NCBI GenBank assembly: GCA_902728285.1
Contig: CACVBU010000570.1
Span: 372,001 to 436,000 of the forward strand
Direction: 5' to 3'
Length of the DNA stretch: 64,000 bases
Source of the DNA: Clytia hemisphaerica
Taxonomy: Eukaryota; Cnidaria; Hydrozoa; Leptothecata; Clytiidae
The translations under genes and the position numbers were made by a program. Positions 4,701 through 59,700 of the stretch are shown piece after piece (the first letter of the stretch is position 1; each line of letters begins with the position of its first letter). Below the pieces are notes generated by a model that saw only the letters and a program-made list of their open reading frames with translations, was not told where the DNA came from and did not search any database.

Positions 4701-5326
4701 ACAAGGTCTTTTTGGCCCTCAAAAAAGTAGCGACCGGGTACAGTTTCATGATAATTCCAAGCAATGTATCTGAAAAAAAATTATAATTATAATATAATTA
4801 TAAATATAATTGCAGTATGAAAAATGGAAATTAAAGAAAATTAAATGTAGGGTCCAGGTCAAAAGGGCATCCTAAACTTTACGAGAGAAATAAAATTTCT
4901 GGTAAGTAATATTCACTCAAGAAATTTGGACAGTAGATAAGCATTTATTTATTCCTTATTTGATACTCTTTGACAGTGCCTTAGTCTAAATAGTAGACAA
5001 TAAAAGAAACTACCAGTAGAAGTCATAAGAATTTCCTAAAGAGAAGGAAAAGTATGAGACTATTCTATATAAACTTACGTTTGAATGGTGTTAAGACCCA
5101 TCATTTTAGCTTTGTGTAGTCTATCCTCCCATAGCTGATATGGAATACGAAAATAATGCATCCCACCAGAGATGTAACGAAATGGTTTTCCATCTTTCAA
5201 GAATGTGTTGTGCTCATAATCGATAGTGAAAGATGGATTGTCTTTCAAATATCTATTCTTATCAAAATTTATTTTGAAAGAGCTCACAAGTGTGAAACAA
5301 ACCAAAAGAACCAAATAATCTTTCAT
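1783..5326 (-). CDS. GLB1: Beta-galactosidase, GH35 family (3' part outside window)
   Basis: Glycoside hydrolase family 35 enzyme that removes terminal beta-galactose from glycans, in animals a secreted/lysosomal protein. Six exons join in phase: 5079-5326, 4463-4769, 3742-3975, 3166-3301, 2403-2626, 1783-1971 (446 codons, no stop). It starts at ATG 5326 with a hydrophobic signal peptide ([16 protein letters not shown]). Family blocks in order: [44 protein letters not shown] (acid/base Glu about residue 189), [13 protein letters not shown] (nucleophile Glu about 267), [13 protein letters not shown] and [14 protein letters not shown]. Exon 6 ([16 protein letters not shown]...[10 protein letters not shown]) matches the start of the beta-domains. 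Animal enzymes are about 650 residues, so roughly 200 are missing; exon 6 ends in a good donor (GTATCT), so the rest should lie left of position 1. The gene could be one of several paralogues (GLB1 or GLB1L), so the symbol is at family level. Confidence 0.93.
3578..3690. repeat. Near-perfect hairpin with CCAAT and CRE-like arms
   Basis: Left arm 3590-3622 and right arm 3634-3665 are almost perfect reverse complements around an 11-base loop. Each arm carries GACCCAACAGC, ATTGG/CCAAT and TGACGTA/TACGTCA, and a weaker outer pair CAATGTCTTC/GAAGACATTG flanks them. It lies in the beta-galactosidase intron between exons 4 and 3. It could be a tiny inverted-repeat transposon; a regulatory role is only a possibility. 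Confidence 0.75.
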
Positions 5327-6993: not shown

Positions 6994-7034
6994 ATGTTCA
7001 GTCATTTTATCAGGTTATTTTCTATCGACCAATA

Positions 7035-7585
7035 CAATCTGAAGATTATGACAATTATAAGACATAATCATGCATCAATAGTATGGGACCCAGTAGGAAA
7101 TCTAAAACTCAATCGACACATAGAGTCTGTACAACGAAAATCAGCTAAATGGATTTCTAATCAATGGCAACGAGAAGCCTCTCCAACTAGTATGATTAAG
7201 AACCTTGACCTGCAAACATTGGAGCAGAGGCGTACAGTCAAGCGCTTAACATCTCTCTACCAGTTTCACCATGGAATCAAGTTCATGCCTCCTAATACCA
7301 TTAAACCTCAGAGATGCAATGATCTTCGATTTCAGCCAATCCAAGGTGCAATTCAACGGTATACCTACTCCTTCTACCCATGGATACACAATCAAAGAAT
7401 GGAATATGCTTTCAGCTGGTCTGGTTAATGCTGAGTCGTTAGATATATTTAATGATAAATTAGTGGCCTTCCTCAAATAGATTATTTTCTTAAGTTTGCT
7501 TCAAATCTCAGTGTTAATTAATCTTGTCTTGTCTTGTCTTATCAAGTTTTCAAAATTCTTTCAGTGATGCGTGAGGTCATAACTT
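7035..7585 (+). mobile_element. 5'-truncated LINE 3' end, copy 1
   Basis: The translation is typical of the region after the reverse transcriptase in CR1/Jockey-like LINEs: ASIVWDPVGNLKLNRHIE, SVQRKSAKWISNQWQ, LQTLEQRRTVKRL, then, after a 4-base insertion at about 7381 that shifts the frame, TIKEWNMLSAGL and a stop near 7480. It ends in a (TCTTG)n-like tail near 7524. The final 260 bases are repeated nearly identically at 10.82-11.07 kb. Not functional. Confidence 0.75.
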
Positions 7586-8361
7586 CTTCTGTAGTTTTTC
7601 TCCTCAATTCAACCTTGCAATCTAATTTATTTCAATTTATCTTATGTTTTATATATTAGTTAATAAAATGTTTTTACTCAGAATTGTTTTTATCCTTCAC
7701 ATATTTTTATCGTTCACATTTTTAGCCTTTTAGTTTGTTTTCAATGTCAATACAGCCATGTAGCTCTTTTTGGTAACCAATTAAATTCCTCAGTAATCTA
7801 AGTTCTTTTTTCGGCAATATTCAATTACCTCTTAATCCAAAGTGGTTGCCTTTTTATTAAATTCTAGATTTTATTATATTTAGATAGATTTTATTTTATT
7901 ACCATTTTATTTTACATTCAGGAAATTGTACGTATGTACCCTCTGAATTATTGAATAAAAATAGAAATAGAAATCATAACTTACCCGAGTGGCTGTGAAA
8001 TACGCACTATGAGCGCCTTCTGATGGCAGGAGACATGGTAAAAGTGGTCTTTTGACATTTTTTGGAAATTAATTCAAAAAATTTAGGCGATAAAACCTTT
8101 TCAAATTTCCATAGGCATTTGTTTTTGTAAATCACAAACAAATCCGAGAACCTCGCAAAATTCAATTTCCGCAAAAATTAATCCCATTAAAGTAGACAAA
8201 AAATACAAATGGAACGATTCAAGACTATTTTCAAACAGGGCTTCTTTTTTATCGGTTTTGATACTAGTTTGGTTAAATGAAGATCCACCTGATCAGCACA
8301 ACCAAATTTGACTCTCTGCTCAGCTTTTTAACGTAGACCTTTTGCTAGGTGTAATGTCATG
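7586..8361. other. Intergenic stretch with a MITE remnant
   Basis: No gene seen. At 8160-8200 the words CCGCAAAAATTAATCCC and ATTAAAGTA match the right end of the CTTTAATGGG MITE found intact at 25290-25647, so this is probably an old half-copy. Confidence 0.4.
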
Positions 8362-12858: not shown

Positions 12859-15800
12859 TTACGATGATTTTTTACAAGACCAAGTACCATTATAACCGTC
12901 ATCAGTTAAAGCGCTTTCATCGTCAAAAAATGCGTATCCATCTGACATCAAAGATCGTTGCTCGTTCAGCTCGTTCTCTTCGTCACTTTCAAGCTCTTGG
13001 TTGTCAAGGCTACCATCTGTTGACTTGAATTCAAATATACCCTGAAAATTGAAAATGAATTCTTAATTTACAGATACCTGCATTCGTGTCCTTATGGGGG
13101 ACCTCTAGTCCATCTTAAACGTCTATATGACGTTAGATGAACGCTGAAAGAATCTTTTGTATTACTTGGAAATAAGACAGTAATTCTCACTAATACTTGC
13201 ACAAAAACCTGCTTTTATTTTACAACCACCAACCCAAAAGATATCGCAAAATTATTTTTTTCCACAAATTCTCTGGAGAAATTTCATAACCAAGGGTAGA
13301 TTTAGAAAAAAATCATACATCAGAGGTTAATTCATTCAGCAGCGATTCCATATGAGCGACAAGTTCACTAAAAGACGGTCTTTTTGACGGCTCCTCCATC
13401 CAACATTTACCCATAATTTCATAACTGTAAAAAGATGGAGAACGTATTTTTTGTGGATATTGTGAAAAAGTGTAAAAATATTTTTTATGCTGGGCTTGTA
13501 CCAGGGTGGCCCGAACCAAAGCCCGTATATGGTTTGAATTTGTAAACAGAAATTTAACTACCCATAATTAGATAAAAACAAGGTTGAAGATGTCATGCCC
13601 CTATTCCTCCCCTATCGACTGGACCCATGCCTTCTATGTTAGTAAGGATAAAACCAGAGTTTTTGTTTCACACTTACATTAGAGGAGGGCAACTTTTCGG
13701 TCTTTTCATTCGATAGCCGCCATTTAACACTTTATAAAGATCTTGAACCGGTATTCGTGGGTAGGGTGTTCCACCCAAAGTGAAAATCTCCCATAGCAAC
13801 ACGCCATACGCCCAAATATCTGATTGCGTACTGTATACACGGTCTAAAAGTGCTTCAATAGCAACCCATTTGACTGGAAACCAACCCTAGAACAAAGAAA
13901 ATTTAAAAAATTAACTCAAATCGTATTGAGAAATTTCTTTTTCTAGAGAAATTTTCTTGTTTTGGCTGATTTCCTCGTCATTGCCCCGCAAGGTGTTTGG
14001 TTACTTCGCGGTGTGGGACGTCTCAGAAAAAATAATTCAAGAAGTTCCGATATTTACTTTATTATTATTATTTTTTAACAAACCAAAAAACATGAAGGCT
14101 TCAATGCCTTGGGCTCTTCAGAAAAAAATTGTACATGGGGGTGGATGATATAACAATTTTTAGTGATTTACCCCCCGAACAGGGTGACTTTTGGCCCCCC
14201 GGACAATAGGTTTTACCCCCCGGGCAAGCATCTGCTGACACCCCGGACACCCCAAATTACCCCCGGACAGGAAATTTACCCCCCGAACAAGGCAAATTTT
14301 GATGATTTTTTGCTACCCCCTGGACAAAATATCCTCCACCCCCCATGTACATTTTTTTCTGGAAGAGCCCCTTCAATGAAAAGCGTTTAGGGAACACTCT
14401 CCAGCTATGTGCTTTGGGTGTTTGAATAAAACTATCTGCTGGAATGCAGCCTTACAACGTTCATTCTCATATCAATACGTTCGCGGGCCATTCATAGCGA
14501 CAGGTACTTGCTAGTTAGTGCACATTATTGGAATCAATGATACAGGGGTCTGTTTTACTTACGTTTGTAGTCTTTTGGTAATAGTCTGTATTGTTTAGAC
14601 TTCTAGCCAATCCGAAGTCTGCAATTTTGATGACGTAATCTTCACCTAGTAAAACGTTTCGTGCAGCGAGATCGCGGTGTATACACTAGAAATAAATGGC
14701 AAGGAAATGAATTTATTTTAAAGTTTTTCTACCATCTTTATGTCGATTATTGAGTATAACATGCTATTGAAAGTGAAGAATAAGCATAAAGTACATGAAA
14801 TGCAAATCTTCTGAAATTTGTGTGTTGTCTTTTGATTGACATTTGTTTTGCTTTAGCCAATCACCAAGCTCAAAAGCAAATCCCAAATATTTATTCAAAA
14901 CCGGTCCTCCGACATGGAGAGATTCTTATTTGGAATCATGGCCTTTATAGTGCATACGTCCCAGCGTGGAGTAATCAGAATGTGCTTGGAGATGACATTC
15001 CTTCGCGAAATCTGCGGAATTTTAACGCATTAAAGTATGTAGATACCTTTTTGGAAGAAAGAAACTCCATTCCTTGGGCTACTTGTGACGAGAAAGATAT
15101 CAAGTCTTTGGTCGTTAGAAAAGGTTGCTGGTCCATTGCTAAAGGTCTTTTCGAACGAAGGAACATACGTAAATTGCCGTGAGGTGCGTATTCAACTATG
15201 ATGTTGATAGGGTCTAAAAAAGAAATGAAAATGTTCCTTTATTAGCAGTATTCGGTTCTACAAAGAGTATAAATGCTATCTAAAGCAATGGTGTATAAAA
15301 TAGGACCTAAGCTATTCTAATGTGATATACCAACATAAGCACATACCCTTTTCAGTGCAACATCCAAGAAAATTGATGATATGTTTATGCTGTCCAATAT
15401 GCTTCAACATTGCTAACTCCAAGAGTAAATCTTGTCTTTTAGCATTTCCTGAAGAGAAAATTGTAATACATCTTTGAGTTCGAATGGGCAATTTTAGCCG
15501 TAGAACACAGAAATATTAGGCCCTAAGCATAGTTGTTGACTATCAAACTAAAACGAAAATATGATTTTTTCAAACAACAAAAGGGTGTGTACTGATTTGT
15601 ATTGCTAATATAATTTTTTTTTGCTACCACAATAATAATCTGAATCATCACCTTTGGGAATCTTAACAGCAACAGTTTTCCTTTCTCCATGGACAAGTCC
15701 ACCTGGTAATGTAGCCTTCATAACAATACCAAATGATCCTGAGCCAAGGGTCTGCGAAATGATCAATGATTTTCTGTTCACTTCCCATTTTGGATCAACA

Positions 15801-18278
15801 CTGTTCAATAAAACTAGGAACGCAAATGAAAGTAATCAGAAAGAATAGTATAGTGACTGACCCTTAGTGATTTACTATTTGTCCTGTTCAGAGGCAATTT
15901 TCCAAATTAATATTTCTATTCATCTGTATTTTCAAAGAAAAATATTATTTTGTATTAAATTTAGTTCCTGTATTTTTGAAGGAAAATGGGTTTTTAATAT
16001 AATATACACGTTTTCTTTTTATAAGAAGCTTAACTTAGTCCAAAGGCTAGAGAATTTCAGCCTCGAAATTCCTTTTAAGAAGTTTGTCAGGCAAAAAAAT
16101 TTTCTTAAAATTCGATAGCCTTTTATTCCAAGCAAAAATCCCTTGCCTTAAAGTACACATACAGTACACGTGTCTGCGGATAGATGTATCTCGTAAAGTA
16201 AAAGTTTTTAAGATAATCTAACCATGACAAACGATAGCCCTTGGCCCAATAAACATGAATATGATATAATATCAGAGGTGGTCAAAGCAAATTCTTCAGA
16301 AAATGAGTTGGAATGCTAAGCAACCCCAGCCCTGACCCGACATTAGAGTCGCTTATAAAAAAACGTGTAAAGCACCAATGAATAATACCTTGAGGGTCGT
16401 GGTACAATTCCTCTTTCGTTCTCTTAAGGTTCCTCTTTTTAGCCTGTACAATAGCAGGAGAGGAATCTATTATATAGACATTTTCTTCGTGTTGAACACT
16501 TTGCTGGTCATTTTGATGGATTTCAACCAATCCAATTTCTTCTACTGGAAGAGCTCTCTGCTTATCATCTCTAGGTTGACATTTACATAATTTACATACG
16601 GCTATGATGCTTATCCCAAAGATTAGCCCAACACCTAAAGCGATCAGAACAACTTTCAGAATGTTGATCCTTGGAGATTCAATATCATGTACTGAAAAAT
16701 AGAAAAATTAATCTTTAATTTACACTAGAAAAACACGCAGTGGTTAGATAGATGAGTTTATGGTCCGATAGATTAGTGGGCATGGGATGATTATGGTGGG
16801 AAGGGCGTGTATGGTGTGGATGTTGCAACCGATTATTGAAGCAGTGAGAAGCCGCGGTGAGAGTAATGCAGGGTCTGTGAATATAGGATGTCATTCTTGA
16901 TATACACGACAGGTTTTATTCCTATTAACCTTAAAAGCAATGATATTCTCAAGATGTAATCTTTTACACAGAAACACCTGAAAAAAAAAGGACATTTCCG
17001 TATAAAAGTTACATTATGAATATCATTGCTTTAAAGACAACTAATAAAAAACTATTTTTAATGAAAAACTAATTCACCTTTGTTGACAGCGACATATCTT
17101 GTCAAAAAATCAAAACCAAACGAATTACTCGCTACACATGAGTAATAGCCCTGATCATCCTCCGTAACTTGAGACAAGGTAAGATCGGAGCTGTGAAGTC
17201 TGGCCTTATTATCGTATCGCGTATATATGTTCACTCTGTATCCTGAAATTGGGATCTCCTTAACAAAGGGGAAGTTTGTAAAGTCGAGTTTATTTTTCAC
17301 AATGTCACGCCCAATATTTTGAAGAATCGTTGGGTTAAAGTTCTTTTTCCAACGAATCCAGCGAAATTCGACTTTGTAGCCATAATATGATTGTTTTGAT
17401 GATTGTTCGTGACATTGAAGCCTGACATGATCTCCCACATCGATACTGGTTTGACTGTTAACGTTCGGATTTGGGCCAGCTTGTTTAAATAGGTGTGGAA
17501 TTTTGATTGGATTGTCAAGATGAGTTCGTCTATTTGAATTTTCATAGCGATACGATGATACTAATGCGTAATGGTTAAGATTTAAACAAAATAATGCATA
17601 AATAATCTTTGTAAAATTGACTTTGAAAGTAAAATAAGAAACTTAAATTTTCAAGATAGCTGTCTATACATAAACACAATATCAAGAGGGTCATTAATAG
17701 AGTACGCAAGCAAAGATTTTTCAAATACTTGACACCTTATCTCACTTGTACGCAGAGGACAATAAAAATGACGCCATTCAAATACTAGACCCTTTTCCTC
17801 TTCACAACGTACGTACTATATGGATGACCAAAGTTCGAATTGAACAAACGTTTTGGTCTTACGAGCTAAAGTAAGGTAAGTGCTTACCATTTACAGTGAA
17901 ATTTCGTTGATTTTTTGCTGACTGTGCATTCACAATGCACGTATATTGACCAGAATCGGACGATCGCAAATCCTTCAACGCTAAAATGGATGATGATGAC
18001 AAAAATGTATGCTTTCTGATTTCAGGATTGATTTTAAACCACCAGTGAGTTGCATTCATATTTCCAGAAACCCGACAATCAAGTGTTACGTCATTGCCGT
18101 ATTCAGCGACAATATGTGTCGCATTTTTATTTGCAAATCGAATCTCTCGAATAGGATCTTTTAATCTGTCTTTAGGAGAAATAAAACTTCTTTCTCGCGC
18201 AACACATAAATTTGTCCGAAAACATAAGATGTAAAAAATCACCAATAAGGAGACATAATGATTTTTCTGGTGTTTCAT
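12859..18278 (-). CDS. FGFR: FGF-receptor-like tyrosine kinase, two Ig domains
   Basis: Single-pass receptor tyrosine kinase. Ten exons join in phase to a 742-residue protein: 17888-18278, 17078-17560, 16389-16691, 15652-15813, 15347-15448, 15047-15213, 14563-14685, 13678-13886, 13319-13424, 12859-13041. ATG 18278 opens a signal peptide, then two Ig domains (cores DVTLDCRV...SGQYTC, and VRLQC...[13 protein letters not shown], the latter like FGFR Ig3), a membrane span at about 305-327, and the kinase: GSGSFG (416-421), AVKI Lys443, HRDLAARN (539-546), DFG (559-561), activation-loop NTDYYQKT with the tyrosine pair 571-572. The ending [20 protein letters not shown] and [17 protein letters not shown] favour FGFR over other receptors. 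Oddities: only two Ig domains, no clear acid box, AIE instead of the APE motif (tolerated in some receptor kinases), and an acidic 60-residue tail from its own last exon with two Gly-Tyr sites. Orthology to a specific FGFR is not claimed. Confidence 0.93.
14107..14370. mobile_element. MITE with TGTCCGGGGG-type internal repeats, copy 1
   Basis: Ends GGGCTCTTC(C)AGAAAAAAA and GTACATGGGGGTGGA/TCCACCCCCCATGTAC are inverted repeats. The inside has about six units of the type TTACCCCCCGGACA. CTTCAATG occurs at both sides (14099-14106, 14371-14378), a possible 8-bp target duplication. It lies in the receptor intron between kinase exons 7 and 8. A diverged copy is at 20005-20247. Confidence 0.8.
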
Positions 18279-20004
18279 TGTTGAATTGATCCTACTGGCG
18301 AATCTACTCCTCTTGTAACCAAAATTAACTTTGTAAAGATTACAGCAAACCCAACGAGCACAGCTATCAGATGTTAATCATAAGTAATAAGTGATTGAAC
18401 ATGTTGCTTAATTCAGTAACAAAACTTACTAAAAATCGCCAACTTTTTAATTACGCCATTATAATCGAATAATTATGGACAGGAAGCTAATAATGTATAG
18501 AGTACATGCATTCTTGTTAATGACCTTCAATTTTTTTCTTCTGGATATCTTATTTCTAAGAAAAACTTAAAACAAAACCTTTCTTTGATGGGATGGTAAT
18601 GTATTCTTTAATTCATATTGATCAATTTCCGTACATTTCGGTTCTGATGCAATTCCGCTTCTAGCATGTATTATCTTTTATTACAAGATCTTTCTATGAA
18701 AAAAGGGAGATTTAATTTTTAATAAACAGAACAGGGGAAAATGAAATTGACTCTTTTCGCTAAAATTTTCGAAAAAATACGACCCTATAAATAAGACTAA
18801 ATTGTCAACAAAAAGTTCGCTAAATTGAACTGACTTTTCAATTTTGTGTTTTTTACGATAGTCGATAGTGTGGTTTTACTGGGACTGGCGTAGGTTTATG
18901 TGGTTTAAAGTGGGCATTCCTATACCTCTTTTTGTTTAAGTCCCATCGGGAGAGAGTTGTTTACTTATTTGCTGTAAAACGCAGAAAACATGATGTCATT
19001 TACTCTCCATAAAAAAAGTTCGATTCCCAAGTGATTAAAAGTAGTATAAATGATGTACTTGTTTTGAGAGTTCCCAAAAGTCATTATACAATGCAAGGGT
19101 CTAATTTCAAAGGTCTATTTTTGGGCCGGACATATGATTGTCTATCATTGAGTGCTCCCCCTGGAGCTATGATACTATCCACCAAAAATAGTGTATATAG
19201 TTAGTTGTTTAATGTTGGCAACCCTCACCTCCACTCTTGAATTTTGTCACACTTCTTTTTAGAATGCGGTAGATAGAAAGTGGGATGGTCGGAATCCTTG
19301 ATCACAGAAAAGGAATATAACTAGGTCATAAGCTGTGAAAAATCGAACTTTTGTTGGATGATACCATTTTGAATAGTCGTTTTGAATAAATAATTACTGC
19401 AGCATAAATTTTAATGATTACCTTATCTATTTGATTTCTCTTTTACATCACACCCCTTTGATCTGGCTAAAGGGCAGTAATAATGATGTAGTAATTTGTT
19501 ATTCAATAGACAGTTGCATTATCCTAAACAACTATCCAAAGATTAGAGGCTAAAACATTACGTAATGGCTTCAAAATAGATAGATAAGATATCTTAGCAT
19601 CAGGATAACATCTTTATTGCTTGCTAAACATTTAAAAATGATTACATTAAAACTTACAGGTGTGGAAATTTAAAATTACTGGGAACTAGGGGGAGAGGAG
19701 ATATTTATAATAAACGGGGCATAGGGGAGCTCAATTTCATACAGATCAATGTTATTATTCTAATTTTGGGAAGCTGACAGATGTCAGGAGAGTTGAAGGC
19801 CTTGAGGATATAAACTATTTGGGAAAATACTTTTAAGAATGAAAAAAAGAAATGCAAAATGGGGAGATTTATTTAAAGGTTTATCGACGTCATCTGATGT
19901 TGTGCTCCTTCACCGAAAAGTCGATTGAGTTTTCCTGATGGTTTTGGGGTTGTTTATATTCATTCCAATTCGGTGACAGCGGCCAATTTAATAAACCTTG
20001 AAAT
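18279..20004. other. Divergent intergenic region, receptor and fucose synthase
   Basis: The receptor (minus) and fucose synthase (plus) are transcribed away from each other, about 2.2 kb apart, so both promoters should lie here. No promoter motif can be assigned with confidence and no open frame with family support was seen. Confidence 0.4.
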
Positions 20005-20480: not shown

Positions 20481-28875
<8,395 letters not shown>

Positions 28876-40060: not shown

Positions 40061-40175
40061 CGTTCGACTATTTAGATAAGATAGAGCATTCAACTTCAAT
40101 CTGTAACACTGCACTGCATATTAAAAAGTAAAAGGCTAGACCACCATGTAGTTACTGATATAGTGTTTCATAAAT

Positions 40176-42077
40176 ATGTCCATGTATACTTTAGAATTGA
40201 ATTATCAAATGTTGATTTCAACTCTTATAAAAACTTTGGTAATATTATCAACATGTCAGCTTTGTTTTTCTTTGAAAAACATTCTCATACTTGGTGGTGA
40301 TGGTATGATGGGGAGTGCAACAACAAAACTTCTGATGAAGCAAAAAACAAAATTCAATTTGACGTTGGTCAACCGTGGTAATTGGTATTGGGATTCAGAG
40401 GAGACCATCAAGCCATTTGTTCACCATTATGAATGTACAAGAGGAGATGGATTTCGTGATTTGTGTACAAGGCTCAATGATGGTCTTTTCTATGATGCTA
40501 TTGTAGACTTTAGCTGTTATCATCCCCTAGATATGGAGGTATTTCCTTTCAAATATTTTGTGAAATTTTAGAGGAATTCAGAAAGCTATAACCAGAATGT
40601 ATATTTTTACTTTATATATACAGAGTGTGTTGGTGTATCTCTTTTTATAGAATCAAACCTCTTTTATCAGCTTCCATTGGAAGAGAAAAGATCAACTTAA
40701 ATTTTGAAAGGTTATTTGTTGAATTTATTCATTAAGTCAAAAGTTTGAAATTAAAATGATTGTAAAAGGATTGTTGAGTTGGTAATGTAAAATATTGTTT
40801 ATCGACATTTAATAAAACAACATGTTTAAGCATGCTTGTTAAACCTGAAGGTTGTGATTACCCTCATTGTAATTCAATCTGTCTAGCTGTGATATTGTAT
40901 CTCAATAAAAAAGAGGGAGATGGAATCTTTATTCAAAGCATTTATTGAATGACTGTTGAATACATTGATTCATAATAACATGAACAGATTCTTAGAAAAA
41001 ATAGGGAATGCTAGAGTGAGACAGATATTATGGATGAACTTTGTTTACGATATTTTTTTCAATAATTTATGTTTTTTATCTTTCTAGGATATTTTGATTG
41101 TGTTTCGTGGAAGGTTTGGGAAATACATTTATATCAGTTCTGATTCTGTTTATGAAGTGTGTCAAGGGAAAAACCATGTGGGATATTCTAAAGAAACTGA
41201 TGCACTGAGACCACATGATAAAGCTTTGCAGTAAGATGTATTTTACTATCCTTTTTCACGTTTTTTATTGAGGACAAAGTTGTTTCATTCAATATCATTA
41301 TTAAGAGGACATTGCTTAGGTGTTGTTCCAAAAGTATTGTTTATTATAATAAAATTATGGAAAAAACAGTCACCTCTTTTAACAGATTTTTTATTTTATT
41401 TCAGAGAACAGTTAAATAAGAGAGACTCTTATGGCCATCAGAAGTTGCAAGGAGAAGAAACCCTTCAAAAGTTCTACAAAAGATTGAAATTTGACTACAT
41501 TGCTCTACGTCTACCGGACGTAATTGGTCCTAGGGACAACACTAACAGATTTTGGAAGTGTTTTCTGTGGACTAAATTCACTGATATTATTGGGCCTGTA
41601 ACCATACCAAAAGAAGTCCAAGATCTTCCTCTCAGTTTTGTGTATAGTCATGATGTTGCCCAATTAATCTACTCTTTGGCAGATGAAGTTTACAGCCCTG
41701 ATGTTTATAATCAAGCTTACAATCTAGGTTTTAAAAAGTTATACACCCTTAGGAATATATTTCAAGATATGTCATCATTTATCGGGAGAGGTTCGGTGAA
41801 TATTACTGAGGGAGATTTCAGAATTGGTTTCCCGTCTGTGACAAGAGGCCCTGTGGATATATCAAAAGCAGAAAAGATGCTAGCCTGGAAGCCAACTCCT
41901 ATAGAGAAAGCATTGGTTGAAACAATGGAGTTTTATGATGATGCTCAGTTCAATGGTGATTATAAATACATAATGGATCGTGTTTTGGAATTTCATGGTG
42001 TGTCACGTGACAAATATCGTGAGTTTGTTATCCAGCACCATAAGGAGATGGAGAGTAGACAGAAACAGGAATTATGA
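40176..42077 (+). CDS. NAD-dependent epimerase/dehydratase-like protein (extended SDR)
   Basis: Three exons join in phase: 40176-40538, 41088-41230, 41405-42077; 392 residues. The Rossmann loop is GGDGMMG (about 40-46), a variant of the GGxGxxG of extended short-chain dehydrogenases; SSDSVYE (138-144) supplies the catalytic Ser region and YGHQK the Tyr178/Lys182 pair. DYIALRLPDVIGPRD and LPLSFVYSHDVAQLIY are further epimerase landmarks. These residues suggest an NAD(P)-dependent sugar-nucleotide enzyme, but the substrate cannot be read. It resembles the plant/bacterial epimerase-like (CSP41-type) branch more than the fucose synthase nearby. A hydrophobic segment before the loop (about 12-32) could be a signal peptide if translation starts at Met12, hinting at a secretory location; Met1 versus Met12 is undecided. 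Exon 1 may be preceded by an untranslated exon. Confidence 0.88.
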
Positions 42078-48900: not shown

Positions 48901-49886
48901 CCCGACCTACATACTTTACAAAATGTGGATAACCTAACAACAGACAACTCTCCAAGACGTGATTTTCAACAAACCAACGAGCTTGAACACGACTTGATTG
49001 CAGGTAAGACAATATCTAATTTTGAGGTATTTTCTTAGTTTGATAAGATCGGTCGGTATATTCAAAATGTTTTTGATTTATCATACTCAACTAATTATGA
49101 CTATAGCTCGCGGGGTAAATTGCCTGTTAAAAAAAGTTCTTCGACAGACACATTTATTCCAATTAGCTGCAGTTGTACCTCTCTAATTGGACTTTCTGGG
49201 CTTTCTATTAATCGAGGAGTTCCCCTTTTCGATCAAGCTTAAAAGTCGCCCAAGAAGATATTCTCGAGAATCTCTCCGTAAATCGACTATTCTGACTAGA
49301 ATCACTTGCATAGGCAAGAATTCAGAATTAAGTATTATCAGGTAATCTTTATCTTCTACGAGGGATGAGGTCTCTTTTTATTGCATTAAAACCTTTTGAT
49401 ATCTTTTGGATTACGACAAGTATGATTATAAAGGTTGACTGAATTACAGGACTTCCCCTGTGCAATATGATCTGACCACGTGTTGACATTTTGATGTAAA
49501 AATTCCACGAAGTTTTTTATTGCGAAACTGTACGAATGTGTTTTTTGAAACCACTTATTTCAAATACCCTCTCTCAAGTTATGTTTACTTTTTAAATCGT
49601 GAAAGAATTAGTCAGACTGTTTCCAGTTTTCTATAAGGACTGTTATTAAAGTTTGTTAAAGGCTGCACGCATCCCCTCTGATATGTTTTGTATAGGGAAT
49701 GCGAAACGTGTATGAAATTACTGAAGAGTCTATGTAGATTTATTGTGAAACCTAGTTCGTGTAGTATATCAATTCAAATTACTCACATCAAAGTAATTTT
49801 GACTTTCTTTTTCTTTTTCAGTTCTTATAGGAAAGACTAGCCAACATCTCATAAATAAAAACAAACACTTCATTATTGATGTTTAA
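42995..49886 (+). CDS. Unrecognised protein with N-terminal C2H2/C2HC-like finger
   Basis: Exons in phase: 42995-43118, 43466-43548, 44165-44333, 46574-46642, 47873-47898, 48796-49003, and either 49822-49886 (ending in a stop) or, skipping it, the coiled-coil exon at 56745; both acceptors fit the phase. Met42995 starts CQHCDAIFGSMEELQTHQ, with Cys-x2-Cys, a His and a further Cys spaced like a small zinc finger. Exons 2-3 give a compact, probably beta-rich segment (GVQVIFKWLEDRNLPD; FKSEWKQMPLGTFCGQLVIG) that matches no family I recognise. Exons 4-6 are polar and likely disordered (TEPGDSQQQ, HKHDERPAISPDLHT). The short ending gives about 248 residues. Every internal junction is consistent, but none has known family support, so the gene is inferred from splice logic. 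If joined to the 56.7-kb exons it would be the N-terminus of a protein of at least 800 residues. Confidence 0.6.
44955..45340. mobile_element. Nested MITE, TA TSD, CCGTATTAC ends
   Basis: TA, then CCGTATTACTTCGAATAAAC, and its perfect mirror before TA at 45341-45342. Several AAACGCCCCC words run inwards from both ends. 386 bp, non-coding. Mariner-like by its TA target and perfect ends. Confidence 0.88.
45637..45958. mobile_element. Nested GGGGTACT-family MITE
   Basis: CCCGGGGGGTACTTAGG...GTGCCGCCCTTAAGGGTACC at the left; GGGCGGCACCCCCC...CTAGTACCCCCCCCGGG at the right. GTGATAT (possibly GGTGATAT) is repeated at both sides, splitting a repeat unit of the host element. Same family as 12487-12772, inverted. 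Confidence 0.85.
46681..46920. repeat. 120-bp tandem duplication
   Basis: 46681-46800 and 46801-46920 are two head-to-tail copies about 92 percent alike (for example TGATCAAAGTTCTTC, TTTCCGTCTCACAGAAAT, GAAATGGTTATTTAGCAAGA). In an intron of the finger-protein gene; no coding sense. Confidence 0.85.
46921..47872. other. Intron sequence, no gene recognised
   Basis: Intron between exons 4 and 5 of the finger-protein gene. No element with clear ends; words GGTAAACAGCG and TTCCGTCT resemble the neighbouring duplication and the 56.0-kb MITE. Confidence 0.35.
49660..49712. repeat. Short dispersed hairpin repeat, copy 2
   Basis: GCTGCACGCATCCCCTCTGA, TATGTTTTG, TAGGGAATGCG: the same phrase as 408-455 with a few changes. 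Confidence 0.45.
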
Positions 49887-49924
49887 CTGGTGATAGTATA
49901 TAGATGGTAACAAGATACTAATCT

Positions 49925-50185
49925 ACACGTTTTTTTTATATAAGGAACACGCGTTTATAAGGAACTCGAGGCTGAAAATGGTCAAAAAAATAAGGAATTG
50001 TTTAGGAACTGCTCAGACTGAGAATAAGAAAACAAGTTTTAAGGAACAGTAAGAGATGGTTATCCAAACTTAGCAGCTATGTAAATAAGGAACTCGATAA
50101 GGAACTTTGAGACTGAAATTCTCTGTAAAAATAAGGAACTCCAGGCTCAGAGCAAAGTTAAGGTTCCTTATAAAAAAAAACGTGT
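49925..50185. mobile_element. MITE with TAAGGAACTC internal repeats
   Basis: Ends ACACGTTTTTTTTATATAAG and the right mirror CTTATAAAAAAAAACGTGT. Inside are eight or so AAGGAAC(T) words, mostly one orientation. 261 bp. It lies directly upstream of the large membrane-protein gene, so it could sit in or near its promoter. Confidence 0.85.
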
Positions 50186-50327
50186 ATCAGCATTTTTGGA
50201 AAACCCTTTGTGTTTTCAATGAAAGCTTTCAAGAGATATAAGTATTTGTTAGAAATTTTGAGACTGGGTAGTTATTTCTACAGTGCAACTTCAACAAATA
50301 GTCCAAGAAAACATCCTTTCATAGAAG

Positions 50328-53300
50328 ATGACATTGCGTGTTTTACTTTTGATGATATTTTACTACTTTCAAGGTAATATACTTATTTTCTGTCATATTT
50401 TGTCATTTCTTCGTTCACTACTGCTGGGTTTCCTTTTGAAGCGTGGGGGGAGGCAAATCTTTATTTTACAGACAGAAATCCAAGCACGAAAGATTTATCG
50501 GATAAACTCCCCTCTATTACTACTTTATTTTTTTAACGACTTGAAATTTTTCTTCTTTTAGTTTGTTCTCCTGTTGAAAAAGCCAACTTTTGAGCGTTGA
50601 CTGAACATTGTGTCCTATGCACCTCCTCTCTCCACGTTGTTGTTTTTGTTTTTTGTTTGCTAAACTTTCCCTTGTATTAGACTTGACTAATTAACTTGGT
50701 CCTCAAATTGTTGTCCCGCAAAAACAAATTAAATTGGCATCACCGCTCAAGTTTATATTTATTTTCATAGGATTATCATCTCGAGAGATTTACGTTTCAC
50801 AGAACGAAGCAAGTGAAGATATCAAAACGTGTGGCATACAAACACATCCCTGTCGCACCATTTCTTACGCTATCTCAATATCCAAACATAACGATACCAT
50901 CCTTTTAGATGCTCAATACACCTATATTCAAAATAAATCTCTGGTTGTTGACAAAACCCTATCGTTTACCTCATTTCCAGCATTAGATAACAAAAAAGCC
51001 GTTGTAAAGTTCTCCGAATCTCTTCGTGATGATTTCCTCTTCGATATTGTTTGCAATATCACCTTAAACAATCTCTCCATCGTCTATGATGCCAAGTATT
51101 GGACACCGGTTCAAATCTTCCAGTTTAACAATGAATCTATGATGAAAGTGAATGGCTGTACTCTAAATCTTAAAACTGAATATCGTTTCACGGAATTGTT
51201 AAACGTTTTCGATTTTTTCACGTCCGTTATTTTTTATAAGACAACATTTTTGAATTGCGGTCGGATTTCGAAGTTAGGTCTTATAGACGTGACTCGAAAC
51301 GTGTCAACAACTTCTTCAAAGATTTTTAAAGCAGCGAACGCTCATGGAAACACTTTCAAAGCTTCCAACGTTCAGAAATCAATCACATTCATTGAATGCC
51401 TCTTTGAAAACAGTATTCTTGATTTTGGATATCTTGACCACCGTGATACAGTTCATTTAAAATTGGTCGCGATTAGGTCGACTTTCATAAACTCTGACAT
51501 TAAAGTCGATTCTTTCTATGATGTAATATTGAAGTTTAATTATCTGCTTCACTCGTCTGTACATATAACAGGTGTTGATCGTCCCTCATTGAAACCCTTG
51601 AAATATCAAAGCAATATCGAGGATTGTTATTTTCACGGATCGAATAGCGGAAACTTTAGTCGTGACAACGTCCCGTTGATGTTACAAATCGAACATAGTA
51701 ATGTTTACATCATAAACTGCACGTTTGAAAGAGCGATATACGGTGCAGTACAAATCATAAGCCCATCCGTAATCATTCGAGATTCGAAATTTATGGGCAG
51801 TTCAGACGATGGTAGAAATGCACCAACTGAACGTTCCGCAGCTTTAACAATGACAAGCCATAGAGAGATAACGTATATGCTATCAAATTGCATTTTTAGA
51901 AATAACTCGGCACTTCCTGGTCAAATTGGCTCAGTCAAAGTCAAAATGACCGGTGGGGTGCTATTGTCTGGCTCTAAATTCCGTATAGAGAACACTTCCA
52001 TTGTGTCTGGCGCTCACCCTATGTCAATGTTCGATACAAGTGTCTTGTTTCAGACTGATGACTACACAAGTGGCCTTTCATGGGTTTACTTTGATGAACA
52101 TACTAAGCTGGTATGCCCACATGGAAAACAGTTTAAGCATTATTATATAAAAAGACAATTCCTAAGATTCGATTGTGTCAGCTGTAATAGTTCATCTTAT
52201 AACGCTAACGACGTGGCCTTTATAAGAATCAATGATACAGCTTCACCATCGCTTGAACAGCATAATATTGTTTGTTACCTTTGCCCCTATCAAGCCTCTT
52301 GCAAAGACGGCATTATTCGAAGTAAAGGCAACTTCTGGGGATTAGCTGACAGCTCTGGTAAAGTGACATTCTATTCATGTCCTCCTTTATATTGCTGCTC
52401 GTCTTTGGAAACGTGCGAGTCATACAACACTTGTGCTGGGAATCGGGAAGGGAGACTTTGCGGTGATTGCCAAAAAGGACATGTTTTATCTTTGTTCGGT
52501 CACAACGAATGTATGGATAAATCGTGTTGTGAATATTCATGGACCGTGTGGTTGGGATATATATTGATGGCTGCTTTGATTTGTCTGTTTTTCTTGTTCA
52601 ACAAAGACGTTTGGAACTACATGATAAATAAACATAAAAATGTTGTCAATAAAGAATTGTTTGAGACCGAGGAATTACTTCTGGACAACAATGATAATAA
52701 CAAACTATTGATTGCGAGTTCTCCGTTTAGGAAAACCCTCTCACCATCCTACCAACTGCCTGGCATAATAAAAATCACATTCTTTTTTTACCAAACAGCT
52801 TCCATCATTCGAGTTGTCGCTTCAGCGAAAACTTATTACAACATGCCAAACTTCGTCAGCTTTTTGTTTACATTCTTCAATATCAAATTGGATTTCACTT
52901 CTAGTTTCATCAAAATTTGTCCTTTATGTACAAATAGCATGGTTGTTATGGATGCATTGAAATCTAGTTTATCGTTAGCATGTTTGGCAATCCTTTCACT
53001 GGCAATGATTATCTGTGTTGCAGTCAATTTCATTATAAAGAAGAGGCCCAAGGATGGAAATACCGCTCAAGTTTGTGAGCCATTCTTACGTCGTTTGAAA
53101 GGAGCATATGTCAATGTTTTGCTACTCAGTTATACCAATATCTCAGTTTTTTGTTTACGAAATATTCATTGTGTAGAGGTTGCTGGCGAATCATATCTTC
53201 GCGTTCAAGCTTCCATCAAATGTTATACTGATTGGCAATATTTTATCATGGTTGTGATTGGTTTATGGGTGATACCTTTCCCGTTGGTCTTGTACACTGG

Positions 53301-53895
53301 CTGCCGCGCCCTTCGATCATATCGTATCTCGCCCAACGAGTTTCTTCTCATCCTTACTTTACCGCCCCTATCACTTTACTTCATGGTCATCCGCCCTCTG
53401 GCGTTTACCCAATACCATTTTGTTTTCGACCAAACCACTCTCGATGAAAAAGATCAAATATTGGGTGTGTTAAACGGACCTTTCAAGTTGAATTTGAAAA
53501 ACCAAGAATCTCATCTCATCTGGGAACCTGTTTTGATTTTACGCCGTTTGTTATTGATCGTCATGACAACATTTATTTCGTCACCGATCGTCAAATTGTA
53601 TCCAGTGGGTTTGCTTTTCTTTATTTTTGCTGTTCATGATTTTGTGCAAAAGCCGTTTAGGGAGGAGAAATTGAATTTTATTCAAATCGTGTCAATTTTA
53701 GTTTTGCTATTATTGACATTTTTCAACATGTTTTGGGCAGTAACTAACAATGCGGATTTGCTTCAAGACAAACTCTATTACAACCTTGGTGAAATCTTGT
53801 TGATTTGTGAAGCTCTTGTGTTATGCTTGCCCGTCATTTTTATGATATCTTATTTGATTTATAAGTTTATTTTAATTTGTTGCTGTAGAAGTTAA
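50328..53895 (+). CDS. Large membrane protein: beta-helix ectodomain, Cys-rich module, ~10 TM
   Basis: Two exons join in phase: 50328-50373, a signal-peptide exon (MTLRVLLLMIFYYFQ), and 50771-53895, one huge exon; 1056 residues. The large frame has no in-frame ATG near its start, so the small exon supplies it. After the signal peptide, CGIQTHPCRTISYAI and repeated short hydrophobic strands separated by Asn/Ser turns (to about 440) look like a right-handed beta-helix of the pectin-lyase type. About 460-600 is Cys-rich (CVSC, CYLCPYQASC, CPPLYCC, GRLCGDCQKGH). From about 604 there are roughly ten hydrophobic spans (near 604, 678, 746, 793, 837, 873, 938, 955, 984, 1022). Similar large proteins are predicted in other invertebrates, to my recollection without known function; a receptor, adhesion or transport role is inference. 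The gene would lie inside an intron if the flanking exon sets belong together. Confidence 0.88.
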
Positions 53896-54036
53896 ATTTT
53901 CCTTATTTGACTCGATTGAATATAGTGAATCAGTTTCTTAGCATTTGAGGTCGTATTATATCGTTAAACCTTTTTCTTTTGTTATGCGCCGTATTAAGTA
54001 ATTTGCAATTAATGCTCGAACTTGACTGATAAATAG
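53896..54036. other. 3' flank of the membrane-protein gene
   Basis: Short AT-rich sequence after the stop codon, probably 3' UTR. No defined polyadenylation site. Confidence 0.35.
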
Positions 54037-54233
54037 ACCTTTTCATAAATTACGTTACGAACATCACTTGCCTTGTTTTGAAATTATTGCCATGGTGATT
54101 AACTCCCAGTGGACTTTATTAAAACTACTTCCTATTCATAAAAAAATCATTTAATGTCCCAAGAGAAGTAATCACCATGGTAATTATTTGAATACGAGGC
54201 AAGTGATGTTCGTGATGTAATTTATGAAAAGGT
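54037..54233. mobile_element. MITE with ~65-bp inverted repeats
   Basis: ACCTTTTCATAAATTACGTT, ACGAACATCACTTGCCT and ATTGCCATGGTGATTA at the left are mirrored at the right with few mismatches. 197 bp, non-coding. Confidence 0.85.
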
Positions 54234-54584
54234 TTATTGTGCATAATTCGATTGAATAATCGACGATTTTACAAATTTTTGGATGATTTTTTTTTTTTTT
54301 TTTTTCACATCATACTTTAATCAATCTGCTTGAATCGATCGAAAAGGACCAGGTTCGAAATGGATTTTTTATACCGGCCCTTTTTAACGGCGTCCATAAA
54401 TCCGCAGCAGGATTAACAAAGGCCAGTTAAGCCAGATAAGATAGTTCAGATAGTTTTAAAATATTATGTATTTTTATTTTAGTTTTGTTGTACAAGTAGA
54501 AATAATAATAAATAACTCATCGAGTATAATCTGCAATTCATTTTTGGACCTACCCCGGTGGAGGTCCTATAAATTAACCTGTGT

Positions 54585-55172
54585 TTGTTCGTTCGTCCGT
54601 TCGTTCGTCTGTTCGTCTGTTACCAACTTTTCTCAGGATTGAATCATAGGAATCTTTTGATTTTTGGTACAAAGTTGCAAAATGGTGGTGGCCAAAATGT
54701 GACGGAGCCCTATTTTCGAAAAAAAAAATTTTTTGGTCAAATTTGGGCCAAAAAACGGTTTTTTTGGACTTTGTGAAAAATTGGATCATTAATTTTTTCT
54801 GATTTTTTGCATGAAAGTAGGGTTTTTTGCTCATGAGGGCTTACTTTTAAAGAATATGTGTGTTTAGACATAAAATTTTGGTTGCTTGGCGTGTTTTTAT
54901 AGAAAAACTGGCCAAATTCGATATTTTTTTATAAGCACATTATCAATTACTTAGGTATTAGCTTTTCTCGAGATTGGCTCTCTCATTCTTTATGATTTTT
55001 TGCACAAAGATGCATAACTATAAACCCTCAAATGTGACGGAGCCCAATTTTCGAAGAAAAAAAATTGGGGGCAAATTTGGGCCAAAAACGGCTAAAAAAG
55101 GGTTTTTTGGACTTTGTGAAAAATTGGATCATTAATTTTTTCTGATTTTTTGCATGAAAGTAGGGTACCATC
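54585..55172. repeat. GTTC microsatellite and ~125-bp duplication
   Basis: A (GTTCGTC)n-type run at 54588-54620, then two copies of TGTGACGGAGCCC...TTTGGACTTTGTGAAAAATT...GATTTTTTGCATGAAAGTAG at about 54709-54830 and 55033-55168. The arrangement resembles the microsatellite-led repeat at 39.7-40.06 kb. No gene. Confidence 0.6.
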
Positions 55173-56010
55173 ATATGTAAAAGATGGCTCAAGCAGATTT
55201 TTGCAAAAAAAATTTGTTGGCTCAAAAAACGCATGTTTATCTATAAGAATCACTATTAATAAGCATACATCAATATTCTTAGTCAAATTACTAAATTTTT
55301 TTATGAGATAGATGTTTTTTTTTGTTAACGAAGTCTTGAATATGAAAGAATATTATTTCAAGAGCATGAAATTTATGTTTCTAAACGTTTTTTTATAAGA
55401 AACAAACGACTAATTTTAATTGATCGTCACTATTTGTGTTCTGAATGACTGTTTAATGGTCACGTCACGTAGATATCAATTATAAATATGTTAAATGCAT
55501 AACCAGGTAGGTCCATAAAAGTATCACTTGTTCTGGTTAAACTCTTAGAGGTCTTCGATTCAGAATAGGAATTGACCAATTTGTCATCACGTCAGAAAAA
55601 GATATCATTCAAAAATCATCAGCTAATAACTATTAATGATTACCAAGCAAGAACAAGACATTAAATTGTCAGATTAATGTCCGCTTTTCCTTCGCCTCAT
55701 TTTTCAATGAAATTCGATGAATTAGTTCCAATCTACCATTGGAATATTATTATGAATGGTAGTAACTTTTAAAACCAGTATATAACTCTTTATAGATTTT
55801 TAACCGCCCTTCCGTCTGTTCCTACGATCAAACCCGTTTAAAAATTCTGATTCAGCTCTCTTACTTTTATATTAAAGTAGTCTAGGCTAATGGCTCTAAC
55901 TCTTCGAGCATATTCGAATAACCCAGTTACGAATGGCAACCTAGCCCAAGGAAAATGTTCTTTCTGCTCTGGATGTTTCTTCACCTGAAAGCCATTACCG
56001 ATTATGTATT
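55173..56010. other. Gene-free AT-rich stretch
   Basis: No exon or repeat recognised. If the 43-49 kb and 56.7-64 kb exons form separate genes, the 5' end of the coiled-coil gene should be here or inside the next element, but no start exon could be named. Confidence 0.35.
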
Positions 56011-56656
56011 ATGTATGTGTTTTTCTGCGACGGAGACGGTAAGGTTCTAATTTGACTAGATCTTGGGCAGCTGATGACGACGGTAAATCGGCACTTTTAC
56101 CGTCCTCGATTTTGCGGGTCAAAACTGCGGGTTATTCAAAATCGCTTAAGTTACTCTACCGTCTTCCAAAGTGCGAATTTGTATTCTAAAGACATTAGAA
56201 ACTCCTGCAAAAAGGAGTTCCTTAACTGTTAAATGTTAGATTATTTTGACATATTCTATAGGATGGTCAAACTAAGCAAACTTTGTAATAAAAACTGTTT
56301 TTATAGCGAGTTTATGTGTCTACCGTTTTGAGGATGGAATGAAATGACCGAAAAGTTTTGACGAAATCCGCATTTTTTATCCGAAAATTGAGGTTGTCAA
56401 AAGTGCTTATATACCGTCGTTCTCATTCACTTAAGATGGGGCAAATGAAAACTAACCGTATCCGCAACAGAGAAACGCATTTTATATAAACTCAATGATG
56501 TGTTCAAATTTAGATGAAACTGTACCAAAAAATCAGTGGCTTAGCTTTAGGGGCCCGAGATATTTTCGATTTTATGTATTTGTACTTTTGATAACGGTGG
56601 TCAGGATCTAGTCAAATTAGAACCTTAACGTGTCCGTCGCAGAAAAACACACATGC
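56011..56656. mobile_element. MITE with ~50-bp inverted repeats upstream of coiled-coil exon
   Basis: Left ATGTGTTTTTCTGCGACGGA, AAGGTTCTAATTTGACTAGA; right mirror TCTAGTCAAATTAGAACCTT, TCCGTCGCAGAAAAACACAC. 646 bp, no transposase frame. Its right end is under 90 bases from the acceptor of the first visible coiled-coil exon. Confidence 0.85.
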
Positions 56657-56744
56657 ATTAACTCAGTATTATTTTGGATGGACAACAATTTTTCCAATGT
56701 TTCTAAAACCATGAACATGCTAAAGCTGTTTTTCCTTTTAATAG

Positions 56745-59700
56745 GTGGCGGTCATGGCTTTTCACAAGTATCTGGAGACGGATCCACTGACGAAGACGAA
56801 GATCTCCAAAGACAACAACCGCAAGCATCTAAAAACGTTAGAACCAAACAAAACATTGATCAAATGTTACACGAACTGTCTCTCAGTCCTGAATCACCAA
56901 CGCACGATCACCATCAACAACCTGCGGGTAGATCAAACGCTCCTTTATCCTTAGGGTCACGACAAGATGACCGCTCTCAACATGCGCATCGCGAGCATAG
57001 GAGGAGAAGCTCTGATGGGAATATTGTCCAACGTAAAACGAGAATTGGTAGACAGAACAGTGCAGAGGTAATCTTGCCGGACATTTGTATAAAGATTAAA
57101 AGTTTTCTACGGGAATAAAAGGAGCTTATTTTAGGCAGTGTCTTCATGCTGAGTCAGATGAATTTTTTTACGCAACGATATCCTGCAAACAAGCGAAAGA
57201 TCGAAAGTTGTTTCGAGATGTGACCTCACATTCTGTTGCTTTTGTAAACAAAAAAATGCAAAGTTGATTTCGAGCAAATTTACAATCGAATGTTTTGATT
57301 ATAAGATAGAAAACGTTCTATTTATTATAAACATAAAAACATTCGTAATGATATCAATAAAAGTCCCTTTGTTTGAGGAATGTTTTTTTATTCAATGTTT
57401 TTTCGATTTTTCAAAACCTTTTTCTAAACTTATCGCACTTGTTTTACTACATCAGCATCATCAGACTTTTAAATCAAAACAAAACCTTTAATTGTTTTTG
57501 TTTCCTGCTCTCACTTCTTTATTTCTTTACCATTTTCCCTTCTAGTTTTTGAAATCCGTGACAGATTATTTAGCAGAGGTTTTTCATGTTTTATTAAGTT
57601 ATGTTATTTCCGCCATTGTGGAAACAAACGTTCGATTTGCGATTTGTATCCCCTGCTACAGATTCGAAATTGCGGCGGAAATTACGTAACCTAGCCTAAA
57701 CGTGAAATCGTTATCAGCAAAATTTGATTGACAGGCAAGCAACAGGTACACTTTTCAATATTTTGATTATCTTCACAGGTGCTACCTAGTCAAAATCGTT
57801 CATATGGCTCACCCAACACTGATGAAGTCAACAAAATGAAAGAGGTATGGTTTTTACTTTTCCTTTAATACCCGATTAAGAAATCAGTTCTAATGCGATT
57901 ATGTCAAACTGACTTGGTTCTGTGAAGTTCGATTCAAATGTGTTTCAAGCCTTTTCAAGTAAAAAAGGACCAATTTTCCCTACGATTCGCAAAAATTACT
58001 CGTAAAAATAAGTCACTTCATGTCAATGTTTTGAAATTTGCTAATGAATAAAAACCGTGTTTTTGTACTCTGTTCTCGTAGGAGATGAAACGTTTGAAGG
58101 ATTTGACGGATAATTACAAAGAGGTAAAACAGGAATTGGAAGTGCGCTGTTCCTCTTATGATGAAGAAATTACCAGACTGGAGGAAGAATGTAAAAAGCT
58201 TAAAGAACAATACAAAAAGGTGTGTACCAGTCCAGTCTAAGACCATGTTCAGACGTTCCGGTTCCGTCCCGTTCCGTTCCGAACCGGTTCCGAAACAAGC
58301 GTGAACGTCAAAATTCGAAACGTCAAAAAAGAAGACGTTACAAAGCAAAACAGATCGAAACGGTTTCGCTCCACTTTTTTCATCGGAACGGAACTGCTCT
58401 GTTTTCTTGCTCCGAAACGTTCCGAAACCAATATAAACACACTCGATCCGTAACGAAAATCATACCGGAACGAAATGGAACAATAACGTGTGAACATGGT
58501 CTTGACCTCAGTTGAGTCAGAATCTCTGAATGTCTTTCGGCCCGAATGATCATCCATTCTGCGCATACCACATTCTGCTCTAAAGGGATATGTTCTGGTT
58601 GTTCAGCCATTCAAAACTGCGTTGTAATTTGCTTGGTTATAAGAACCAGTAAATTTTTAATGGCGCTCGGGTGTTTTTATTTATTTTGGCATTTTGAGCC
58701 TTAAACTGTTCTTATCCTGTTCTTATTTATAGAGTGAACTTTTTTAAGCTTTATGCCCAATTATTACTACTTTGACCCCTTAATTGCTTGAAGTTGAGTA
58801 ATTCTAGACTCAGCATTATCTTAAATTGTTCTTATTTTTTGGTGATTTTGGGCCTCGCTGCTCTTATAAAATTGCTGTTTTAAAAATAAAAGAGTGTAGA
58901 TGAAAAGTTAAGGACTGGTACAGGAAAAGCCCTAGTTCTGAACCGCCCCCAAAAGCCTAGTATTAATCCCAAATCTGGATGAAAAAGATCAAACCGCGGT
59001 TCGCCGACCTGAGCAGATTCGCTTACGGAGCCTTCAGAGTGGAGATTATGATTTCTTTGTGTTTCTATTGTCCAATCTGCGTTTCCCTAAATTTTTATAT
59101 TACACAAAGCTAAAGACAACTTGAAATCTCTTGAGTCAAAAAAGTTGTAACTTGAATACCTCAACTATAGGGTGACCGTCTAAGCCAAACATCTCCAACT
59201 ATAGTTATGCCTTTCAAAAAATGATATAATAAATAGTATGCATTTTTCGTATCAGTCAAAGGAAGAAAACGAAGCGAGCGTTCACGCTTTGATGGATGAG
59301 AACGAAGATTTGAAGAAGCAATGTGGCGGATTGAATAAAGAACTGGAAGGAATGAAGGTTTGTAAATTCTTTGAAAGAAATCCTCATCCGTTTACAGCAA
59401 GCAACCATTTTTCCTTGTCGTTTGTGATTTTGAATTGGTTTTGAATGCATATTGTGAAGTGTTTTGTCGACAAGCCAAGTAGTAAGACCCAAATCCAAAT
59501 ATTTTGATTTTAAAGTGGTCGTTACACCCCGTTATAGATAGTGCCAACATTTGATATTGAATAGGTATACAGACCGTAATTTATTTCTGGTCTTAATTCC
59601 TAATTTAAGTTTCGTTGTAAAAAGGCTTTAGATATTGAATTGGGATAAGTTCTTTAACCCTTTAAGTACCACGGTCCTTTTTTTCTAAGTTTCCTTATTA

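Follow-up and report, generated by a model that had tools for sequence, protein, structure and literature searches.

Fibrocystin and TMEM2/CEMIP are animal proteins with extracellular parallel beta-helix repeats. More generally, beta-helix heads occur in adhesins and in enzymes of polysaccharides, and there are polytopic receptors with heads of other kinds. Here we describe a gene from the hydrozoan Clytia hemisphaerica that lies at 50328-53895 (+) of a stretch of 64,000 nucleotides (nt), hereafter the window (assembly GCA_902728285.1, contig CACVBU010000570.1, positions 372,001 to 436,000 of the forward strand). In its predicted product a beta-helix head is joined to a polytopic membrane core through a stalk with 15 conserved cysteines, an arrangement covered by no family model matched here. 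On balance, we read the locus as a genuine gene of at least two exons in an animal-type genome, whose product would cross the plasma membrane several times, starting from an external N-terminus, and would most likely be a receptor for recognition at the cell surface. The computation supports the gene model and the order of the parts, as well as a distant relative that shares this order and has a signal exon of the same type.

The gene occupies an open stop-to-stop frame of 1,066 codons (50695-53895, +), for which a crude estimate from the window's own stop frequency gives a chance of ~1e-28. As an earlier, sequence-only reading of the stretch had stated, this frame lacks an ATG at its start; exon 2 has its earliest methionine at residue 139, counted along the joined protein. 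Translation is predicted to begin in exon 1 (50328-50373, +, 46 nt), which carries the start codon and the signal peptide (MTLRVLLLMIFYYFQ plus the first base of Gly16). This exon joins in phase to exon 2 (50771-53895, +, 3,125 nt), which encodes residues 16-1056 and the stop, and the resulting protein of 1,056 amino acids begins with MTLRVLLLMIFYYFQG. The intron predicted between them (50374-50770, +, 397 nt) is of the GT-AG type and phase 1, with donor AAG/GTAATA and acceptor TTTATTTTCATAG/G, the slash marking the exon border. By a simple small-residue rule, the signal peptide is likely to be cleaved after residue 18 or 19.

The 64-kb window was scanned on both strands for ATG mini-exons of 28-120 nt with a signal-peptide-like hydrophobic stretch and a G/GTRA donor. 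Four ATGs gave mini-exons ending in phase 1, and two of these (40182/40209) sit in one gene, leaving three distinct places; 50328 has the top hydrophobicity of the four (2.94 vs 2.50-2.51). Ten further mini-exons end in phase 0 or 2 and are incompatible with exon 2. Between 49001 and the acceptor, no rival candidate combined a hydrophobic start with an in-phase G/GTRA donor, except the internal ATG 50352 of the same exon. The hidden signal-peptide exon proposed in the earlier reading is thus supported, because it joins in phase, is rare in the window, and is mirrored in a distant relative by an exon with the same intron phase at nearly the same position. Among the repeats listed for 49500-57000, none falls inside the coding exons, and the window contains no paralogue, the best other tblastn match having E=2.3. 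Overall, the predicted two-exon gene model is well supported. Directly before the exon 1 ATG, ACATCCTTTCATAG/AAG (50311-50327) resembles another splice acceptor, and exon 1 may have a preceding non-coding exon or be a trans-splice site. Degenerate ATAAGGAACTC-type repeats lie closely upstream of it, at 49968-50165.

The distant relative was recovered by a motif scan. A degenerate pattern, N-R-x-G-x-L-C-G-x-C-x-x-G, was applied to one genome per bacterial or archaeal species, guided by uncharacterised proteins of this build that presumably occur in sponges and some protists. The scan gave 16 loci, of which one is a clear relative (L015), one a weak candidate (L018), and 14 were not taken. L015 lies on JAIYDP010000288.1, labelled as a metagenome-assembled genome (MAG) of Verrucomicrobiaceae from a pond. 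In the model, its gene (3868-7733) can be read through only if six GT-AG introns, each of 32-39 nt, are removed, as against one intron in the window gene, and a neighbouring gene resembles a xyloglucan fucosyltransferase. Because of these six short introns and this neighbour, L015 is probably a eukaryotic contaminant of the MAG.

The relationship is significant in two collinear stretches. In unspliced tblastn searches of the window protein against the 16 loci, the L015 core was matched at E=2.5e-7 and the Cys motif at 3e-5; against all 30 loci (the 16 from genome contigs and 14 from viral contigs) the values were 5e-7 and 6e-5, the core lying outside the search motif and the Cys motif having been selected for by the scan. 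After splicing, local alignment gave 64.7 bits over residues 385-608 of the window protein, from the last coils through the stalk into the beginning of the first span. A second stretch, residues 790-1006, scored 51.6 bits and is collinear with the first. The best of 200 shuffled L015 sequences reached 26.9 bits. Identity in the aligned parts is 22-26%. In a global alignment, from which the cysteines were counted, 15 of the 16 stalk cysteines of the window protein align with cysteines of L015, as do Cys732, Cys816, Cys833 and Cys1034; this full-length alignment puts the window protein's N-terminal part in the wrong place, and the scores above come from the local alignments. Both proteins also have the motifs WE...RR and GPF adjoining one span. 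The homologue with the same order of parts that the sequence-only reading had proposed to look for therefore exists, and the order it had described, of beta-helix, Cys-rich region and multi-span core, recurs in L015.

L015 also has a counterpart of the hidden first exon. Its long frame has no usable methionine near the start, the next one being residue 169 of the model. A first exon of 61 nt (7733-7673) codes for MPMNIASLAVVLLTLIKLSEG and is followed by a 38-nt phase-1 intron that splits a glycine codon. The distance from the split glycine to the first CG is 20 residues in the window protein, compared with 19 in L015. This short exon is the best evidence for the predicted signal exon of the window gene. 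In sum, L015 resembles the window protein in its signal-peptide exon with a phase-1 intron, its beta-helix, Cys stalk and multi-span core, all in the same order. It differs in having a longer helix with PMP motifs, and in lacking segment 871-889 and the greater part of the first cytoplasmic loop.

The ectodomain of the window protein begins with a probable right-handed beta-helix of approximately residues 20-455 (50782-52089, +), based on a count of coil motifs and on the alignment of its last coils with the helix of L015. This region of ~435 residues after the signal peptide contains short strands of hydrophobic residues, which end in NCTF, NCIFRNN, STFINS and similar motifs. The pattern [CSTN].F.[NGSA], which was picked after inspecting the sequence, occurs eight times, a number reached by 1 of 2000 shuffles (mean 2.2). 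N-glycosylation sequons are also frequent, with 12 in residues 19-600 (shuffle mean 6.9; reached by 55 of 2000 shuffles), and 12 of the 13 sequons in the protein are N-terminal to the first span. The helix region had no significant Pfam or PDB sequence match of its own, and neither Chlam_PMP nor Beta_helix was listed for it by Pfam up to E=10, a listing from which weak matches may be filtered out. The helix of L015 is more readily recognized. Chlam_PMP was above the Pfam cut-off in one of four helix pieces (29.9 vs 20.6 bits), and Beta_helix fell below its cut-off in three of the four (E 2e-4 to 0.045). Within L015 residues 21-690, the tetrapeptide FxxN occurs nine times (shuffle mean 2.97; reached by 4 of 2000 shuffles) and GGA[ILV] three times (mean 0.11; reached by none of 2000). 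The window ectodomain is therefore probably a beta-helix by homology to L015 and is not classed as a PMP. The description of this domain as pectin-lyase-like accordingly stands by way of the L015 helix, but not by the window protein's own scores.

The helix is followed by a cysteine-rich stalk at residues 464-602 (52114-52530, +), identified by its 16 cysteines, with NREGRLCGDCQKG, and by the alignment to L015. The multi-span membrane core extends over approximately residues 604-1045 (52534-53859, +) and was delimited by hydropathy, low-confidence model helices, and the L015 alignment. The argued spans are 606-625, 680-703 (weak), ~739-771, 791-811, 837-856, 936-957, 957-975 (weak), 985-1007 and 1023-1045. 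An extra hydrophobic segment at 871-889 is present in the window protein and absent from L015. The span around FFYFYQ was argued from charge balance, conservation, and the model helix at 680-703. A predicted extracellular loop (53170-53223, +) carries Cys816 and Cys833, both aligned to cysteines of L015, which would lie on the outer side and may pair. In L015 the loop charges alternate: residues 938-967 (K/R 4, D/E 0) and 1136-1144 (K/R 2, D/E 0) would be inside, and 990-1018 (K/R 1, D/E 6) and 1164-1187 (K/R 1, D/E 3) outside. This pattern fits nine spans with the N-terminus out and the C-terminus in, the topology that we argue for the shared core. Since L015 lacks segment 871-889, the earlier count of ten spans is uncertain; a multi-span core stands on hydropathy and the alignment, with nine spans argued and ten possible in the window protein.

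Searches against known families returned little. The window protein and its parts had no significant match in Pfam, NCBIfam, PHROGs or the PDB sequences, NCBIfam being run on the window protein only. A two-sequence profile of the window protein and L015, covering the stalk end and the core, found nothing among solved PDB chains up to E=10. A plasmid search with the window protein and a phage search with the L015 core gave no match. No 7tm family in Pfam matched the window protein, for which eight segments are estimated and nine argued; these results do not place it among the G-protein-coupled receptors (GPCRs). Likewise, no significant sequence or profile match to TRP/polycystin or other solved channels places it among these, and the sequence searches gave no alignment of the window protein to a polysaccharide lyase. 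The titles and abstract openings of the open-access matches listed contain no description of this architecture, and the terms pectin and beta-helix do not occur in PMC12716839. The assertion that the protein matches no nameable class holds in so far as no family model was found in these collections, but the protein is not a one-off, as L015 is a significant collinear relative. By this alignment, the gene is a member of a eukaryotic family for which the searches of Pfam, NCBIfam and PHROGs turned up no model. Three further matches were treated as chance: an HCN2 chain (E=0.98), the sole match of a single-sequence search with the core, and the Pfam families WBP-1 (E=0.2; 0.066) and DUF5123 (E=0.12).

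A mechanism can be proposed from this architecture. The signal peptide would send the N-terminal beta-helix and the disulphide-rich stalk outside the cell, where the helix would serve for recognition. Its ligand would most likely be an extended one, for example a polysaccharide or the surface of another cell. A rigid stalk would relay binding or pull to the nine-span core. With its N-terminus outside and its C-terminus inside, the core would carry the signal inward, and the ...CCCRS tail would lie within the cell. We infer that the protein lies at the surface, that the helix binds a ligand, that the stalk transmits this binding, and that the core signals.

Several points weigh against this reading. 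Because the core is without a solved or named relative, signalling is argued from architecture only. Its single-sequence structure model had a predicted local distance difference test score (pLDDT) of 40.7, and the helix borders alone were used. A free-energy estimate of the spans gave eight segments in each core, that of the window protein and that of L015. In the window core it counted 871-889 and missed 680-703 (~4.4) and 957-975 (2.24 at best, overlapping a chosen segment), and it is a crude estimate that also called two segments inside the L015 ectodomain. The PMP tetrapeptides are not enriched in window residues 20-455, where FxxN occurs twice (shuffle mean 2.07) and GGA[ILV] not at all. 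The window helix was filed as non-PMP because neither tetrapeptide is above chance and neither Pfam model was listed. The L015 gene model involved choices of our own: its first exon was picked by eye, and GT-AG introns of 25-60 nt were imposed by script. The automatic splice choice for the last intron was replaced because it removed the conserved Cys motif, and the intron at 5241-5210 was set by hand, since joining across it yields a product that fits the window protein; this choice could inflate the stalk score, though not the core score. Finally, phase-1 introns are described as generally over-represented around signal-peptide cleavage sites (PMC1626468). For this reason the shared intron phase is weaker evidence, and convergence is possible.

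If the core conducted ions, the protein would be a channel or mechanosensor, with the helix and stalk tethering it to the matrix or to a neighbouring cell. Polycystin-type channels with large ectodomains are thought to tether in this way, and the window protein likewise places a large ectodomain on a polytopic core and has a conserved cysteine pair in a predicted extracellular loop between spans. However, it has no significant match to a solved channel, the two-sequence profile finding nothing up to E=10 and the HCN2 match being at chance level, and no pore motif was spotted by eye. We regard a channel as unlikely.

The core might also be an elaborate, non-signalling anchor, with the helix binding cells or microbes, as has been proposed for the Pmps. 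These are described as surface adhesion proteins of the Chlamydiales (PMC6701047), and the PMP-type repeats of the L015 helix (FxxN 9, GGA[ILV] 3) would be in keeping with such a role. Nevertheless, a single span suffices for anchoring, the parts that align significantly with L015 are the stalk and the core's second half, and the window helix is without the PMP tetrapeptides. Pure adhesion is therefore distinctly improbable in our view.

A membrane enzyme or transporter, with the beta-helix handling cell-surface polysaccharide, appears very improbable. Beta-helices are common in proteins that act on polysaccharides, and the WE...RR and GPF motifs common to the window protein and L015 lie beside one span, but neither the window protein nor the pieces of the L015 gene matched a catalytic family (the window protein only, for NCBIfam), and no active-site set was recognized by eye. 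It is equally hard to credit that the gene model is an artefact with its true start elsewhere and exon 1 not the real first exon: the exon 1 donor is without a G at +5 and the exon-by-exon listing upstream covered only 1.8 kb, yet from 49001 onwards there is no other candidate with a hydrophobic start and an in-phase G/GTRA donor apart from ATG 50352, and L015 is arranged alike, with a signal-peptide exon and a phase-1 intron.

The surface recognition receptor thus remains the reading that we prefer. A broader proposal, which we put forward tentatively, is that the two genes represent an ancient, undescribed eukaryotic class of receptors or receptor-channels, in which a ligand-binding beta-helix head, set on a disulphide stalk, would drive a nine-span core of a new fold, and that this class was kept together with the signal exon from a pond eukaryote to animals. 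If the core signals or conducts, one class of recognition receptor would be common to animals and some other eukaryotes. Annotation may have missed such a class because nothing named matches its membrane part. The family can be searched for and tested with the two-sequence alignment, the conserved cysteines, and the motifs WE...RR and CYT.WQ.

L018 (JACONB010000032.1, bases 3-1427) is a fragment that begins inside a gene at the start of its contig, which is labelled as the cyanobacterium Ca. Paraprochloron terpiosi. By eye, it contains helix-like sequence, the stalk motifs GYW...QCP, HCC and NRTGTLCGKC, and then hydrophobic stretches; it has an in-frame stop at 681-683 and no Pfam helix match. 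Single comparisons gave 0.001-0.004 with the window protein and 2e-7 to 2e-5 with L015. Among the 30 loci, its match to L015 had E=6e-4; L029, a locus that matches by chance, had 0.006 to L015 in that motif. Because the L018 value is only ten times better than that of L029, L018 was lowered to a weak candidate. From ~1414 (1414-3132), the eukaryote-like coding sequence gives way to bacterial receiver and GGDEF domains, and the contig is probably chimeric. L018 is possibly a third member of the family, its similarity being weak and its sequence a fragment. Ca. Paraprochloron terpiosi is presumably a sponge symbiont, and our guess is that L018 comes from the sponge host.

Other candidates were set aside. 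The L029 frame has a stop and is antisense to a large bacterial frame. A tblastn match of the window protein to the L018 contig at 1552-1752 (E=0.003; 0.006) was judged a coincidence involving a KPFREE-like stretch in the bacterial receiver domain. Scans of viral contigs and genome contigs for close relatives found none. Pattern scans of viral contigs gave 8, 6 and 0 loci, and neither the window protein nor the L015 protein had a tblastn match below E=5.3 in these 14 loci.

The neighbours of the gene in the window are animal-like. They include a GH35 exon (4364-4780, -), epimerase exons (23696-24067, + and 40164-42077, +) and, at 14978-18377 (-), immunoglobulin-domain exons and a tyrosine-kinase exon; a hydrophobic stretch was also spotted there by eye. 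The exons at 14978-18377 are perhaps a single receptor tyrosine kinase gene. Directly 3' of the gene, at 54032-54238, is a foldback-like inverted repeat with 87-nt arms that are 83% complementary. Two inverted 50-nt arms, 94% complementary and 536 nt apart, at 56016-56651, are possibly the ends of a small mobile element. Elsewhere, a 63-bp tandem repeat with the palindrome TTGGTATCGATACCAA occupies 27836-28040.

Compared with known systems, the predicted protein combines features that otherwise occur apart. Fibrocystin and TMEM2/CEMIP have one membrane span or none and are without such a Cys stalk. Polycystin-1 and the adhesion GPCRs resemble the window protein in placing a large ectodomain on a polytopic core, but their ectodomains are of other types, with a GAIN module, and they have 11 or 7 spans. 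The window protein has no Pfam match to the families of either. The Pmps of chlamydiae and trichomonads are described as surface proteins, the chlamydial ones with a beta-helix (PMC11166332, PMC10715098, PMC6701047). They end in an autotransporter or transmembrane domain, and in the passages concerned a Cys stalk and nine spans are not described for them; unlike theirs, the window helix is without FxxN/GGA repeats. On the alignments presented here, the window protein and L015, with L018 as a possible addition, form an unnamed family of their own, in which helix, stalk and multi-span core occur together.

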